Below, in pieces: positions 19,893 through 26,507 of a stretch of 37,724 nucleotides of DNA. The first letter of the stretch is position 1. Each line of letters opens with the position of its first letter. The notes under the pieces were generated by a model that was given only the letters and a program-made list of their open reading frames with translations, was not told the origin of the DNA and searched no databases. This DNA comes from Anaerolineae bacterium (GTDB lineage: Bacteria; Chloroflexota; Anaerolineae; Promineifilales; Promineifilaceae): contig WFSA01000283.1 of NCBI GenBank assembly GCA_015486215.1, positions 1 to 37,724 of the forward strand. The letters run 5' to 3'. The translations under genes and the position numbers were made by a program.

Positions 19893-20693
19893 ATGAGTAT
19901 TCTTGAAGCGATTATACTTGGCCTTATTCAAGGGCTGACTGAATTTTTACCCATCTCCAGTTCTGGACATTTGGTACTGTTGCCGACTATTTTTAAGATG
20001 TCCAGCCCTGATTTGACGATGGTTGGACTGTTGCATTTGGGGACGCTGACGGCCGTTCTTATTTATTTTTGGCACGATTTATGGGAAATCGCGCAAGGGA
20101 TGCTGGCTGGATTGGCAGCACGGGAGCCGATGAAGGATGAAAACGGCCGTCTCGGATGGTACATCATAGCCGGTTCCATTCCCGCCGCCATAGTCGGCTT
20201 ACTATTCAAAGATAATGTTGAGCAGCTATTTGGCGATCCTAAAACGGTGGCCGCTATGCTGTTTATTACCGCCGCATTGCTCGTCTTTGGCGAAAGAATG
20301 CTGTCTGGCAAGCGCACCATCGGCACGATGGGCTGGCTGGATGCGATTATCATCGGCTTTACCCAGATGTTTGCCCTAATGCCCGGCATCTCGCGCAGTG
20401 GCAGCACGATTATGGGCGGGTTGTTACGCGGCTTGAACCGTCCTGACGCGGCGCGGTACAGCTTTTTGCTCGGCGTGCCAGCCATTGGCGGCGCAGGGCT
20501 GTTGGCTTTGCTCGATATTTTTGGCGAAACGCAAGAACAATCTTTTTTGATTTACGGGGTGGGATTTGTGGCGGCGGCCGTTTCTGGGTACGCTTGCATT
20601 CATTTCTTGCTCAGTTGGGTACGCAAGCATAGCTTGTATCCATTTGCGATTTATTGTGCTTTGTTTGGAGGATTGTATTTGCTATTAGGATAG
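19893..20693 (+). CDS. uppP: Undecaprenyl-diphosphatase
   Basis: The 266-residue polytopic protein removes a phosphate from undecaprenyl diphosphate, recycling the lipid carrier for peptidoglycan and surface polysaccharide. The BacA/UppP signatures are complete. First motif: E17-F-L-P-ISSSGH26 in EFLPISSSGHLVLLP. Second motif: PGISRSGST at 164-172 with R168. About eight hydrophobic segments fill the rest, and the length equals the family norm. The start is supported by its position at the first family residues; upstream there is only the gggcgaccc palindrome and caatataactaatt, whose TATAAC could be a -10 box for a nearly leaderless message. Confidence 0.95.
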   Translation: MSILEAIILGLIQGLTEFLPISSSGHLVLLPTIFKMSSPDLTMVGLLHLGTLTAVLIYFWHDLWEIAQGMLAGLAAREPMKDENGRLGWYIIAGSIPAAIVGLLFKDNVEQLFGDPKTVAAMLFITAALLVFGERMLSGKRTIGTMGWLDAIIIGFTQMFALMPGISRSGSTIMGGLLRGLNRPDAARYSFLLGVPAIGGAGLLALLDIFGETQEQSFLIYGVGFVAAAVSGYACIHFLLSWVRKHSLYPFAIYCALFGGLYLLLG

Positions 20694-20728
20694 AGAATCA
20701 TAGCGTGGGGATGGGTAGATGTTATGTT

Positions 20729-20790
20729 GGGCGACTCAGCGAGTCGCCCCTACAGCATATCCCCCGTAGGGGCGACCCGCTGGGTCGCCC
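20729..20790. repeat. Pair of gggcga palindromes before the FGE-like gene
   Basis: gggcgactcagcgagtcgccc (20729-20749) and gggcgacccgctgggtcgccc (20770-20790) are perfect hairpins in the leader of the three-gene operon. A longer open frame through them (from 20724) is not supported; the ATG at 20826 has agaggtagtagt before it. Confidence 0.65.
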
Positions 20791-20825
20791 GCCCGCGCGC
20801 GATACATATAACAAGAGGTAGTAGT

Positions 20826-21710
20826 ATGCACCAAGATAACTATGTTCCAGACGATGATCACGTTGGCGGCGACAGAATTAGCATCGGCGACCTAAAGAAT
20901 ACGGAGGGGGTTGCCATCGGTGAGGGAGCCAGCGTCACCATCAACCATTATCATTTATCACCGGATAAACAAGAAAAAACAAAGTTACCATTTGAACCCG
21001 ATATGGTATTGATCCCGTCAGCCCCCTTTATTATGGGCAGTGATGTGGATGAGCCAGAAGAAGCCCCGCGCCACGTTGTTCAATTGCCAGATTTTTATAT
21101 CAGCATGTACCCCATCACTAACGCCCAATTTGCCCATTTTCTATGGGAGACGGGGGGCATCGCCCACGCCGCGCTGTTGTGGAATGGAAATGAGCCGCCC
21201 GACGATAAATTAGATCATCCGGTGACGGGGGTGACGTGGTATGAGGCGGCGATGTATTGTGAGTGGCTGGCAGCGGAGACGAAACGACCGTACACCCTGC
21301 CGACTGAGGCGCAATGGGAAAAAGCGGCGCGGGGAGTGGATGGGCGGCTTTTTCCGTGGGGGGATGAATGGGATGCCGGGCGATGCAATGCTGAGTACGG
21401 CACAATCACCCCTGTGGGCGCGTTCCCCGTGCAAAATGAGTATGGATGTTGTGATATGGTGGGAAACGGCCGTGAGTGGACAGCCTCCATTTGGGGCGAA
21501 CATGTCCGTCAGCCCGATAAACTCGGCACCTATCCATGGCAGAACGACAGGCGGAACGCTTTAGGCGAACCATCCACCACCCGCCGTATTTATCGGGGCG
21601 GCGGTGCAAAAAAATCACACGATTTCCGTTGCTCCGCTCGCGGCGGCACTCTCCCCGAAAAACGGGGACCAAGACGCAACCGACATGGATTTAGAGTAGC
21701 GAGCAGGTGA
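20826..21710 (+). CDS. FGE/SUMF1-like C-type-lectin-fold protein lacking the catalytic cysteines
   Basis: The 294-residue protein starts with a ~40-residue glycine-rich segment, SIGDLKNTEGVAIGEGASVT, of a kind found in front of effector domains in STAND/caspase-type bacterial systems. Residues 55-294 match the formylglycine-generating-enzyme family: MVLIPSAPFIMGSD, YPITNAQFAHFL, HPVTGVTWYEAAMYCEWL, RPYTLPTEAQWEKAARG, FPWGDEWD and terminal GFRVASR. Genuine FGE uses two cysteines before the RC-AR motif; here the stretch is YRGGGAKKSHDFRCSARGG, so both are absent. A binding role is likelier than sulfatase activation. The NVxEWT motif reads NGREWT, encoded by an ACGGCCGT octamer. First gene of an operon with SIR2-like and STAND genes. 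Confidence 0.85.
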   Translation: MHQDNYVPDDDHVGGDRISIGDLKNTEGVAIGEGASVTINHYHLSPDKQEKTKLPFEPDMVLIPSAPFIMGSDVDEPEEAPRHVVQLPDFYISMYPITNAQFAHFLWETGGIAHAALLWNGNEPPDDKLDHPVTGVTWYEAAMYCEWLAAETKRPYTLPTEAQWEKAARGVDGRLFPWGDEWDAGRCNAEYGTITPVGAFPVQNEYGCCDMVGNGREWTASIWGEHVRQPDKLGTYPWQNDRRNALGEPSTTRRIYRGGGAKKSHDFRCSARGGTLPEKRGPRRNRHGFRVASR

Positions 21711-21780: not shown

Positions 21781-22875
21781 ATGAGCAGATTAAAAGCACG
21801 CGCGGCAAGAAGGCGGAAGCAGTCACAGGCGGCGGAGCAGGCTGGATTTTGGCCTGAGCTATGCCGCCGTGTTGATGTTGGGCAAGTTATCCCTATCATT
21901 AGCAATTCGGTGTTTAATCAGTTGATTTTTGACCTTGATGATGAGGAGGCTGTACAAGATCGGAGCATTGAGGAGCGGCTGTCGGATGTGTGGGCAGAGG
22001 AAATTCAATATCCGCTGCCAGCGCGGTATGAATTGCCCCGCGTGGCGCAGTTTGATCGCGTCGTCAGCAGTAATGATGATCGTGCTTCTAAAGTTCGTTA
22101 CCTGAATTGGTTGAAGGATACGCTGCTCTTTTTAGCCGAAGATGATGAGGCGATTGATCAGGAGATAATTGACGAACTGCGTGACGATATTGATCAACAG
22201 ACATTCTCTGATATTGCGGTTGAGCTGGGGTATCCCCGCTTAATGGGTGGTAAAAGCAATGCGCTTGAGCAGTTGGCGGAATTGAAATTGCCGATTTATG
22301 TCACCACCAGCCCGTTTGATTTTTTGGAACGCGCTCTCAAAGCGAATCACCGTAACCCGCGTACACAAATCTGTTTTTGGTCAGAAGAGCCGACGACTTA
22401 TGTGGATGAGGCGCATAAGATGGATTATGATTTCAAGCCGACGGCCGAAAATCCGATGGTTTTTCACCTTTTTGGGCTGGAAACATATCCAGAATCTATG
22501 GTGCTGAACGAGGATGATTATCTTGATTTCTTGTCGCTCATTTCTAAGGATGTACAGCAGGAACGGCCGTTGATCCCCGTTTATCTACGCCAAGCGATTA
22601 CCCAATCTTCGTTGATTTTGCTCGGCTACCGACTGCGCGATTGGGATTTCAGAGTGATGTTTAGGGGGTTGATCAACGCTGTCCCGTCAAGTTTGCGCCG
22701 ATTTAATTTGGCAATTCAACTAGCCCCGCATCAAAATATCCCTATTGTTTCGGCCAAGCAGATTCGTAAATATCTGGAAAAGTATTTTGTTAATTCCGAT
22801 TTCACAGTCGAGTGGAATACGCCGCATGGATTTGTAGAAACCTTGTGGAAGGAGTGGAACCGATGGCGACAATGA
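21781..22875 (+). CDS. SIR2-like domain protein with degenerate NAD motifs
   Basis: The 364-residue protein resembles the SIR2_2 group of bacterial immune and conflict systems. What shows it: LPIYVTTSPFDFLERAL (170-186), MVFHLFGLETYPESMVLNED (226-245), the DYLDFLSLI helix and SSLILLGYRLRDWDFRV (276-292), in the order of SIR2 NADase cores. The canonical TTNxD is TTSPFD, LHG is LFG, and the N-terminal GAGxS loop is ISNSVFN. The classical catalytic asparagine and histidine are therefore missing, although H229 is close by. The middle (95-150) is acidic and helical. Its stop overlaps the STAND gene start by 13 bases. It could be a diverged NAD hydrolase or an NAD/nucleotide sensor for the neighbouring NTPase. 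Confidence 0.8.
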   Translation: MSRLKARAARRRKQSQAAEQAGFWPELCRRVDVGQVIPIISNSVFNQLIFDLDDEEAVQDRSIEERLSDVWAEEIQYPLPARYELPRVAQFDRVVSSNDDRASKVRYLNWLKDTLLFLAEDDEAIDQEIIDELRDDIDQQTFSDIAVELGYPRLMGGKSNALEQLAELKLPIYVTTSPFDFLERALKANHRNPRTQICFWSEEPTTYVDEAHKMDYDFKPTAENPMVFHLFGLETYPESMVLNEDDYLDFLSLISKDVQQERPLIPVYLRQAITQSSLILLGYRLRDWDFRVMFRGLINAVPSSLRRFNLAIQLAPHQNIPIVSAKQIRKYLEKYFVNSDFTVEWNTPHGFVETLWKEWNRWRQ

Positions 22876-25709
22876 GAGAAACAGAACAGAAATGGGGCGA
22901 TAATCCCTACATCGGGCCGCGTACTTTTTCTCCTGACGAAGCGGATAAATTTTATGGGCGTGACCGCGAAGCACGCAATTTGACCGGCATGATCGTCTCT
23001 CATCGGACGATGTTGTTTTATGCCCAATCTGGGGCTGGCAAAAGCTCGTTGATTAACGCCAAACTGATTCCCAGCCTTATTGAGGAAGGGTTTGAGGTGC
23101 TGCCTGTTGCTCGTGTCAGCGGGCAGAGCGGATTGGATGTTAAGGTGGACAATATCTTTGTCTATAATCTCATCTCTAGTCTGCATCAGAAGCGGGAAGA
23201 GCCGCCCCAATTCCCATCGTTGACGCTGGCCGATTTTCTGGATAATTTGGTGCATGACAACGATTTGTTTGTTTATGATGAGCAATATGTTTATGCGGAT
23301 GATGTGGAATTGAAGCCGCGTATTTTGTTGATTGACCAGTTTGAAGAGATTTTGACGACGAATACGCCTTTTTGGGAGCAGCGGGATTTGTTTTTTCAAC
23401 AACTTAGCGAAGCGTTGGCATTAGATGACCAATTATGGGTTGTGATGGTGTTGCGTGAGGATTTTGTGGCTGGGCTGGACCCGTACCGCCACTATTTTGA
23501 GGATGAATTGCGCGGCCGTTTTTATATGCAGCAATTGGATCGGGAATCGGCGTTGGCGGCGATTACGAAGCCGGCTGAGAAGGCTAAACGGCCGTTTACC
23601 CCCATCGCCGCCCAGATTTTGGTGGATAACCTGCGTGAAATTCGACAAAAGGAGAATGTTGATAAGCGTTTTTTGGGTGCGTATGTTGAACCAGTTCAAT
23701 TGCAAGCGGTTTGTTATCAGATGTGGGAGAAGTTGAAGGAGGGTGATGGTGAGTATATCACCGTGCAGGATGTGCGAGAACACGCCAATATCAGCGAAGC
23801 ATTGACCAATTTCTATGAGGACACGATTGCTGATACCGTCGCTAATACAAGTGTCTCGGAGCCTGATTTACGCAACTGGTTTGATGTCAGTTTGATTACC
23901 GAAGCTGGCACGCGCAATGCCGTCTATCGCGGAAAAGAGACGGTAGGCGACTTGCCGACCCCCATCGCTGATTATGTAAAAAACAAATTTATCATCCGCG
24001 AGAATGTGCGGCCGGGCGGGATTTGGTATGAGATAGTGCATGATCGGTTTGTGCAGCCCATTTTGAAAGCGAATCGTGAATGGCGGCAAGAGCAGCCTTT
24101 GATTCGGTTGGCAGATCAATGGGATAAATCAGATCGAAATGAATCGCAGCTGCTCAGCAGGCGGCAGATAGCTGAATACACCAAAGTGAATGAGAATTGG
24201 AAAGCGTTAGGGCCGTTGATTCGTGTGTATGTTAGTGCCAGCAAGAGGGCATTGAGAGCAGCCGACGCAGCTGCACGTGAACAAACGTATCAACAGGAGT
24301 TAGCGCAGAAGAGTATGTTGGCGGCGGCAGAGCGTGAGCGGGCAGAGGGGGCGGAGCTGGCTGCGGCTCGACAGAAAAAACTTGCTGGGATTTCGATAGG
24401 AATCGGTGTTTTTGCGGTTATTGTCACTGTTATCGTTTTTATTATGTTGGGCATGACGCAAAAGGCGACTAAATATGCGGAGCAGCAAGCGGCAACTGCT
24501 TCTGTGGCGCAAGTGGCGGCAGAGAGTGATGCGATGTATGCGGCTGAACAATCTACTCTCGCTTTTGCGGCACAGGAAACGGCCGTGTCGGATGCGGCGT
24601 ATGCGGCTGAACAGGCAACGGCCGCTTTTGAAGCACAGGAAACGGCCGTGTGGGACGCAGCGTATGCGGCTACAGCCGAAGCGGAGGCGAACGCCAATCG
24701 GGAGCAGTTGGCAATACAGATAGATGAGATGCGGGCGGCTCAAGCGACTGCTGATGTACAGGAAAGTGTGTTGAGTGAAGCGTTGCAGACGCAGGCGGAG
24801 TTGCTTGAACAATTATTGGCTGTCACGGCAACGGCAACGCCAACAGTGATATTTGTGATAGAGATAACGAAAACCCCTGAATCTTCGGATGTGCCAGCGA
24901 CAGATACCCCGTATCCGACAGAAGTACCAGAACAGGATTTGACGATACAATTGGAAAATGTGCGGGCGACACAAACGGCCGTTGCCATTAGAAGCGCAGC
25001 GGCGACAACCATACTTGTCGGCGTTTCCAATAACGCTGTCCCCATTGAAGCCCTCCGTATCGGGAACGGCCCTGAAAATTATCTATTCATCGGCGGCATA
25101 CATGCAGGGATGGCACCCAGTACCGTCAGTTTAGTAGAGGAGCTTGCAGCGTATTATGAAAAAAATCCAGAAGCAATCCCATCCCATGTCACATTATATT
25201 TTATTCCATCCCTTAACCCAGACAGCCCAGAGGCTGTAGGCACATATGAGGGGCGATTGAATGCGAATGGTGTCGATTTGAATCGTAATTGGGGCTGTGG
25301 ATGGCAGGAAGATATTTTCTTGGGAGATACTCTTTATAAAGGGGCGGGAGGAAGTGAACCTTTCTCTGAACCGGAAACGATGGCGTTGAAAAAATTTATT
25401 GAGCAGATTGAACCACGAACGGTTATTCTTTGGGATGCCCCTGATAGACCAGGTTTTGTCAGTGCTGGACAGGGTTGTGAGGCGGATACAGTATCAAAAG
25501 AAGTCGGGTCACTCTATGCTGAAAGCAGCGGGTATCAGTTTGGTGTGGGAGAGCCAAAAACGGCTCCTGGTGCTATTCACCATTGGTTAGATCAGCAAGG
25601 AATCCCCACTTTTTTTGTTGTTTTGCCGCGAACAACAAAATTTGATTTGGATTTGCATGTACAAAGTGTGGATGAGGTTTTGAATAGGTATGACGAGGGC
25701 GTGGAGTGA
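22863..25709 (+). CDS. nSTAND-type NTPase with TM helix, 21-residue repeat stalk and M14-like domain
   Basis: The ATG at 22863 follows ggaaggag at 8-base spacing (948 residues). Residues 12-40 carry the NPYIGPRTFSPDEADKFYGR lead-in of novel-STAND NTPases. Walker A is in AQSGAGKSS (K60), Walker B ILLIDQFEEI (D158), with a helical and winged-helix part to about 440. A lysine/alanine-rich coiled region leads to a single TM (508-530), then alanine-rich 21-residue repeats (about 537-600), a T/P linker, and a zinc-carboxypeptidase-like M14 domain (716-943: GGIHAG, NPD, R798, NRNW). H747 is kept, but the usual HxxE glutamate is M750, the third zinc ligand aligns with D858, and no catalytic glutamate is seen in FFVVLPRT. 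Topology: NTPase inside, pseudo-peptidase outside. Confidence 0.85.
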   Translation: MATMRETEQKWGDNPYIGPRTFSPDEADKFYGRDREARNLTGMIVSHRTMLFYAQSGAGKSSLINAKLIPSLIEEGFEVLPVARVSGQSGLDVKVDNIFVYNLISSLHQKREEPPQFPSLTLADFLDNLVHDNDLFVYDEQYVYADDVELKPRILLIDQFEEILTTNTPFWEQRDLFFQQLSEALALDDQLWVVMVLREDFVAGLDPYRHYFEDELRGRFYMQQLDRESALAAITKPAEKAKRPFTPIAAQILVDNLREIRQKENVDKRFLGAYVEPVQLQAVCYQMWEKLKEGDGEYITVQDVREHANISEALTNFYEDTIADTVANTSVSEPDLRNWFDVSLITEAGTRNAVYRGKETVGDLPTPIADYVKNKFIIRENVRPGGIWYEIVHDRFVQPILKANREWRQEQPLIRLADQWDKSDRNESQLLSRRQIAEYTKVNENWKALGPLIRVYVSASKRALRAADAAAREQTYQQELAQKSMLAAAERERAEGAELAAARQKKLAGISIGIGVFAVIVTVIVFIMLGMTQKATKYAEQQAATASVAQVAAESDAMYAAEQSTLAFAAQETAVSDAAYAAEQATAAFEAQETAVWDAAYAATAEAEANANREQLAIQIDEMRAAQATADVQESVLSEALQTQAELLEQLLAVTATATPTVIFVIEITKTPESSDVPATDTPYPTEVPEQDLTIQLENVRATQTAVAIRSAAATTILVGVSNNAVPIEALRIGNGPENYLFIGGIHAGMAPSTVSLVEELAAYYEKNPEAIPSHVTLYFIPSLNPDSPEAVGTYEGRLNANGVDLNRNWGCGWQEDIFLGDTLYKGAGGSEPFSEPETMALKKFIEQIEPRTVILWDAPDRPGFVSAGQGCEADTVSKEVGSLYAESSGYQFGVGEPKTAPGAIHHWLDQQGIPTFFVVLPRTTKFDLDLHVQSVDEVLNRYDEGVE

Positions 25710-26026: not shown

Positions 26027-26144
26027 GCCTGTGTTATGCGTAAATACGCCGTAATGAAGCGTGCAAAGAAATTATGCTCCGTGCGTCAAAATCTTCGTAA
26101 AAACGGCGTATATAGCTGTCAATTTTCCAAAATCGGCCTTTTTT

Positions 26145-26507
26145 CAGTGGAGTCTGTACATCAATCCCCGCATAGCACCGGCTGGTATTAACCAAACATG
26201 GGTGACCAATGGGGGTGAAGGGTTGGTTTGGGGGATTGTTGATCCTTTATTGGCTGGTGAGTCGTTGATATTGAGGATGAGCAGCCCGTATTATGATCCT
26301 GTTCATACCCATTTCTCTGGCATAATGGCGGCTGGATCAACAATTTACGCACAGGTGGATTCGGTTGGCCCAGCGTTATATGCGGCGGTAAAGGAAGTGG
26401 ATGAGAGTAATAATATGATGGGGCCGTTAACAATATCAGTTTTTTCTGCGCCAACGGCCGTTTTTAATGTGCATCCTCCTGATGATTTTATAACAGAACG
26501 GCCGTAA
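26145..26507 (+). pseudogene. Fragment of a CARDB/immunoglobulin-like extracellular domain
   Basis: From about 26145 the frame reads YINPRIAPAGINQTWVTNGG... then VDPLLAGESLILRM, GSTIYAQVDSVGPALYAAVK and EVDESNNMMGPLTISV. The last part is the typical C-terminal half of a CARDB domain (LAGGxSxTL ... AxVDxxxxVxESNExNN). No signal peptide or N-terminal strands are present. The upstream codons (from a GTG at 26061) look like non-coding sequence, so it is most likely a remnant of a larger secreted protein. It still holds two ACGGCCGT octamers at its 3' end, as intact genes do. No terminator seen. Confidence 0.6.

Follow-up and report, generated by a model that had tools for sequence, protein, structure and literature searches.

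A degenerate M14 carboxypeptidase domain as the putative outward part of single-pass signalling proteins in Anaerolineae

In receptor kinases of the PASTA-domain type (PknB/StkP type), a cytosolic Ser/Thr kinase is joined by one transmembrane (TM) helix to an extracellular part that senses the cell wall, and for defence proteins of the STAND type the known triggers are mostly cytosolic. Among conflict systems, nSTAND1-EAD8-FGE architectures have been described (PMC10907252), and decoy roles have been proposed for inactive enzymes in related systems (PMC7159879). The words 'carboxypeptidase' and 'M14' are absent from two eLife papers on such systems, and 'carboxypeptidase' is absent from a PNAS paper (PMC7159879, PMC8195603, PMC10907252). 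The accessible text of a review on M14 pseudopeptidases covers eukaryotic proteins, namely AEBP1, CPXM1/2, carboxypeptidase D domain III (CPD-III) and Ecm14, and describes no bacterial one (PMC11266112); a bacterial M14 pseudopeptidase receptor was not found in an open-access library.

We analysed a window of 37,724 nucleotides (contig WFSA01000283.1 of an Anaerolineae bacterium) that encodes an nSTAND1 NTPase followed by a single TM helix and a degenerate M14 domain, hereafter psi-M14 (Table 1). The frame is open throughout (22812-25709) and begins with a GTG at 22812 (965 aa); the ATG listed in Table 1 is the likely start and matches the numbering of the initial annotation. The nSTAND1 domain (PF20703, E=7.6e-32) has the P-loop of a STAND NTPase, with Walker A (AQSGAGKSS) and Walker B (RILLIDQFEE) both intact in an alignment with its counterparts in loci L038 and L107. 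The motif RQKK precedes the TM helix, and a long linker lies between the helix and the M14 domain. The RQKK side is presumably cytosolic, which would place psi-M14 outside.

Table 1. Features of the window around the nSTAND1-psi-M14 gene.
Feature	Position	Strand	Basis or remark
nSTAND1-TM-psi-M14 receptor-like protein, 948 aa (likely start)	22863..25709	+	frame overlaps the end of the SIR2 gene
nSTAND1 NTPase domain	22905..23837	+	Pfam, stretch 32-342 of the 965-aa frame
Single TM helix, limits approximate	24378..24434	+	hydropathy, sequence
psi-M14 domain, M14 fold	24966..25706	+	Pfam, alignment, model
SIR2-like (SIR2_2) protein	21781..22875	+	upstream neighbour of nSTAND1-psi-M14 in 3/3 loci
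FGE-sulfatase-like (C-type-lectin type) protein	20724..21710	+	relatives in L038, L107

Active M14 carboxypeptidases trim the ends of peptides. The M14 domain (Pfam Peptidase_M14, E=1.5e-17) retains only one of their zinc ligands: H747 (codon at 25101) occupies the H69 position, D858 (25434), within W-D-A, sits at the third-ligand position H196, and neither M750 (25110) nor A751, around the E72 position, is a Glu. V920 (25620) stands where the catalytic E270 belongs, and K899 at the Y248 position. The substrate-carboxylate site is kept, R798 (25254) and N807/R808 (25281) corresponding to R127, N144 and R145. The initial annotation had singled out H747, M750, R798, N807-R808 and D858 and had seen no catalytic glutamate, and the codons bear this out. 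It had also placed the lost Glu of HxxE at M750; a Glu is indeed missing, but the aligned position is A751, because the close active relatives use HxxxE instead of HxxE.

By sequence and predicted fold, the domain belongs to M14. An AlphaFold2 model built from 13 sequences (alignments: window, L001 and viral-contig relatives) reached a pLDDT of 79.7 and a pTM of 0.82, and the model of the HxxxE relative L001 a pLDDT of 74.1. The top PDB matches of the window model in Foldseek are M14 carboxypeptidases (E about 1e-13), with a TM score of up to 0.78, to carboxypeptidase T. This enzyme and the MpaA-type murein peptidases are among the best solved-structure relatives by sequence and structure and, unlike psi-M14, have both a complete HxxE...H zinc site and the catalytic Glu. 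The eukaryotic pseudopeptidases, as far as the review's accessible text covers them, share with psi-M14 the M14 fold, the extracellular location and the loss of catalytic, zinc-binding or substrate-binding residues; CPD-III, with H69, A72 and D196, is much like the window protein (H747, A751, D858). However, R127 and/or R145 are replaced in all of them according to the review's table (PMC11266112), whereas psi-M14 keeps both. None of them is known to be joined to a bacterial kinase or a STAND NTPase.

Of 52 genomes from the host's family that were searched for relatives, 39 gave matches; a scan of genome contigs gave one relative only. We aligned 104 M14 domains from the retrieved loci, which fall into class A (psi-M14, 54 domains including that of the window) and class B (50 intact-looking domains). 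In class B, nearly all domains have H69 and E72 (as HxxxE), and 48 of 50 have His at the H196 position and Glu at the E270 position. In class A, no readable member has a Glu at the E72 position, none of the 54 has one at the E270 position, and only two have His at the H196 position, where E, Q, G, N, D, H, S, Y and A occur and E or D is frequent. H69 is retained in 43 of 52 members, and R127, N144 and R145 are kept at about 98-100% (the first two in 52 domains, the last in 54). As judged from the alignment, this loss is targeted and not a product of chance, because only 7 of the 42 columns conserved at 95% or more in class B are lost in class A (<10%), among them E72, H196, E270 and Y248, while the carboxylate site is kept; the other three are S197 and two Gly, one following H69 and one in NPDG, and 23 of the 42 are kept at 90% or more. 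The class A alignment holds no psi-specific conserved H, D, E or C column able to replace the zinc ligands, since the residues conserved specifically in psi domains are P, S, G, L, P and G. Replacement ligands, which the initial annotation had asked to be checked against an M14 alignment, were thus rejected.

A tree built with the active-site columns left out places class A in one clade (SH-aLRT 98 and 100%), apart from the divergent L029. L029:180-2594 (-) encodes a fusion of M23 with a degenerate M14 domain that stands apart from the main clade. Nine close pairs of psi domains have dN/dS of 0.07-0.16, indicating strong purifying selection, similar to or lower than the values in class B (0.11-0.36); psi domains also have 20 invariant columns and open frames in many genera. 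A sequencing or frame artefact was rejected given these open frames, and an oddity peculiar to the window given the 54 family members. Taken with the one-clade loss of ligands, the lack of a conserved replacement ligand, the modelled fold and the predicted TM topology, this selection supports well the earlier suggestion of an extracytoplasmic pseudo-peptidase. Proteins on viral contigs contained only general M14 domains; at loci L136-L148 these lie inside large proteins, possibly phage structural proteins, and most have HxxE.

The domain is most often found on kinases. About 38 class A domains are preceded by a Ser/Thr kinase domain, with a TM helix separating the two in nearly every case; the HRD and DFG/DLG motifs of these kinases are intact in most. 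Kinase plus FHA also occurs among the modules fused behind the TM helix. nSTAND1 precedes psi-M14 in three loci (window, L038 and L107), and five class A domains are found in short TM-helix proteins (L039, L085-L088), of which L039 shows a zinc ribbon. The initial annotation had proposed a sensor of a STAND protein, which fits these three loci but is too narrow: because psi-M14 in most cases forms the external part of a Ser/Thr kinase, often encoded beside an intact paralogue, fusion to STAND is one application of a receptor domain with broader use. The kinase form shares the layout of PASTA kinases, with a pseudo-carboxypeptidase as outside part instead, and differs from them in that its gene commonly has an intact hydrolase paralogue as partner. 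Kinase-FHA-TM-psi-M14 proteins of L112, L113, L116 and L118 (e.g. L112:4898-7909 +) have lost HRD (HGG) and DFG in the kinase and have Tyr at the H69 position of the M14 domain; by these residues, each is a predicted pseudokinase and pseudopeptidase combined in one receptor. At L108:6688-13626 (-), psi-M14 forms the C-terminus of a 2313-aa bacterial alpha-2-macroglobulin.

In the window, the receptor-like gene closes a cassette whose order (FGE-like, SIR2-like, nSTAND1-TM-psi-M14) is the same in three genera. SIR2 proteins usually read TTN (TTNxD), and this Asn and a His are active-site residues; the SIR2-like proteins of all three cassettes have TTS instead and keep the His, within His-x-x-Gly in the window protein; their site may be altered or inactive. 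A PDB sequence search with the SIR2-like protein gave no significant match. The FGE-like partners carry EAD7 (L038) and EAD8 (L107), and Pfam detected no effector-associated domain in the FGE-like protein of the window. PADLOC found no known defence family in the cassette, only a weak match for the SIR2-like protein (E=0.02). The cassette resembles conflict systems of the nSTAND1/EAD/FGE type, with which it shares the nSTAND1 NTPase, an FGE-type lectin-fold partner and inactive enzyme modules (PMC7159879, PMC8195603, PMC10907252) and, in its relatives, the EAD7/EAD8 that likewise mark these systems (PMC7159879, PMC10907252); unlike the published ones, the window protein is predicted to cross the membrane once and to carry psi-M14 outside. 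A BacA/UppP gene (lipid carrier recycling; 19893-20693, +) precedes the FGE-like gene in the same orientation, at a distance of 30 bp.

Class B domains are widespread in the class (e.g. L042:5913-6920, +), have one extra residue between the two zinc ligands of their HxxxE compared with HxxE, and are presumably active enzymes. They are mostly stand-alone proteins, and for many an N-terminal hydrophobic segment is predicted. In 23 loci, the class B gene is the next downstream of the class A gene; in 22 of these its start overlaps the class A end or lies at most 35 bp from it on the same strand, and one further pair is spaced by 312 bp. Many psi proteins, including that of the window and other nSTAND1 ones, have no adjoining intact paralogue. 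The window genome has no HxxxE paralogue at all, its other M14 being a canonical HxxE enzyme, and the window's receptor must therefore work without one. Relatives of class B are fused to LysM (L125, L160, L157) or M23 (L054, L154, L157, L158), which points to peptidoglycan. The cell-wall link suggested earlier is thus upheld indirectly, through these fusions, a LysM on a partner of the second psi lineage described below, and the peptidoglycan genes of the host genome (12 M23 matches and Mur-ligase-type genes, three of them in one contig). Downstream in the window, a 148-aa frame (26061-26507, +) resembles the C-terminal region of a surface-type protein of 884 aa that neighbours the class B gene in L052, and is possibly a gene remnant.

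Five further kinase-TM-M14 proteins, from three other families of the same class, form a second lineage. They have GSIQGDQ-type motifs in which H69 and E72 are lost and a Val at the E270 position, and keep H196 and the carboxylate site; a class B gene follows in 5/5. Their motif has the spacing of HxxE, as in the intact L181 and L182, which differs from the HxxxE spacing of class A, and a separate origin by convergence is therefore likely, if not proven: joining this lineage to the main psi clade was not rejected (AU test, p 0.68).

We propose, with a probability of about 0.6, that psi-M14 is a pseudo-carboxypeptidase that serves as the outward, ligand-binding part of single-pass membrane signalling proteins and binds peptide C-termini. 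The pocket formed by the equivalents of R127, N144 and R145 would hold the terminal carboxylate of a peptide and, because this pocket is kept and catalytic zinc binding and cleavage are predicted to be lost, the domain would hold its ligand, most likely a muropeptide or another wall-derived peptide, and not destroy it. A bound ligand would alter the receptor or cluster it and so switch the cytosolic module, which is predicted to be a Ser/Thr kinase in most relatives. The secreted intact paralogue, often paired with the kinase form, would act on the same ligand. In the window the module would be the nSTAND1 NTPase, working with its FGE-like and SIR2-like partners in the manner of putative immune cassettes. 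The architecture, the lost and retained residues, the single clade, the purifying selection and the conserved pairing and cassette are observed; the topology, the ligand, the absence of zinc and activity and the direction of the signal are what we infer from these patterns; weak binding of some metal by psi-M14 is conceivable, because H69 is so often kept and E or D is common at the H196 position. The same residues would be the starting point for a metalloenzyme that is still active through a moved or altered metal site (e.g. H747, D858 and another residue), which is highly improbable given that E270 is absent in 54/54 and E72 in all readable members, that the H196 position is variable and that no new metal-binding residue is conserved. 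That the domain is decaying and functionless is hardly credible: the long branch of the window copy in the trees would fit, but decay is rejected by the dN/dS among relatives, as well as by the invariant columns and open frames.

As in other enzyme-pseudoenzyme pairs, psi-M14 might mainly bind protein, as an inhibitor, activator or dock of the intact paralogue, so that the kinase senses the enzyme and not its substrate or product. The 22 overlapping or abutting pairs, the one at 312 bp and the intact neighbour in all second-lineage loci agree with this; docking, however, does not need R127, N144 and R145 to be kept almost without exception, and many psi proteins, nSTAND1 ones included, lack an adjacent paralogue, so we regard it as doubtful. 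For the nSTAND1 cassettes alone, the domain could instead serve as bait, a dead surface-peptidase copy that senses a factor which a phage, predator or competitor directs at the active enzyme, and that triggers an FGE/SIR2/STAND response. This is unlikely, since most psi-M14 copies are on kinases and not on conflict modules, no known defence family was detected in the cassette and the Asn usual in TTN is missing from the SIR2-like proteins, even though the cassette is conserved, FGE-like partners in its relatives carry EAD7/EAD8, decoy roles have been proposed (PMC7159879) and nSTAND1-EAD8-FGE architectures have been described (PMC10907252).

Receptors that use psi-M14 to bind peptide C-termini look like a previously undescribed family, and few pseudoenzyme receptors have been recognised in bacteria. 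Here the idea is open to test through the fusions, the pairing with an intact paralogue that is conserved, and what seems to be a second origin. More tentatively, such receptors may have evolved at least twice from M14, the dead peptidase reading the C-termini of peptides or muropeptides, the kinase form and the live hydrolase next to it making up a feedback loop and the nSTAND1 form being plugged into an immune-like FGE/SIR2/STAND cassette. If so, the kinases of Chloroflexota would have a wall-peptide sensor other than PASTA, a STAND NTPase would have an external input, and damage to the wall or an attack on it could trigger a STAND response.
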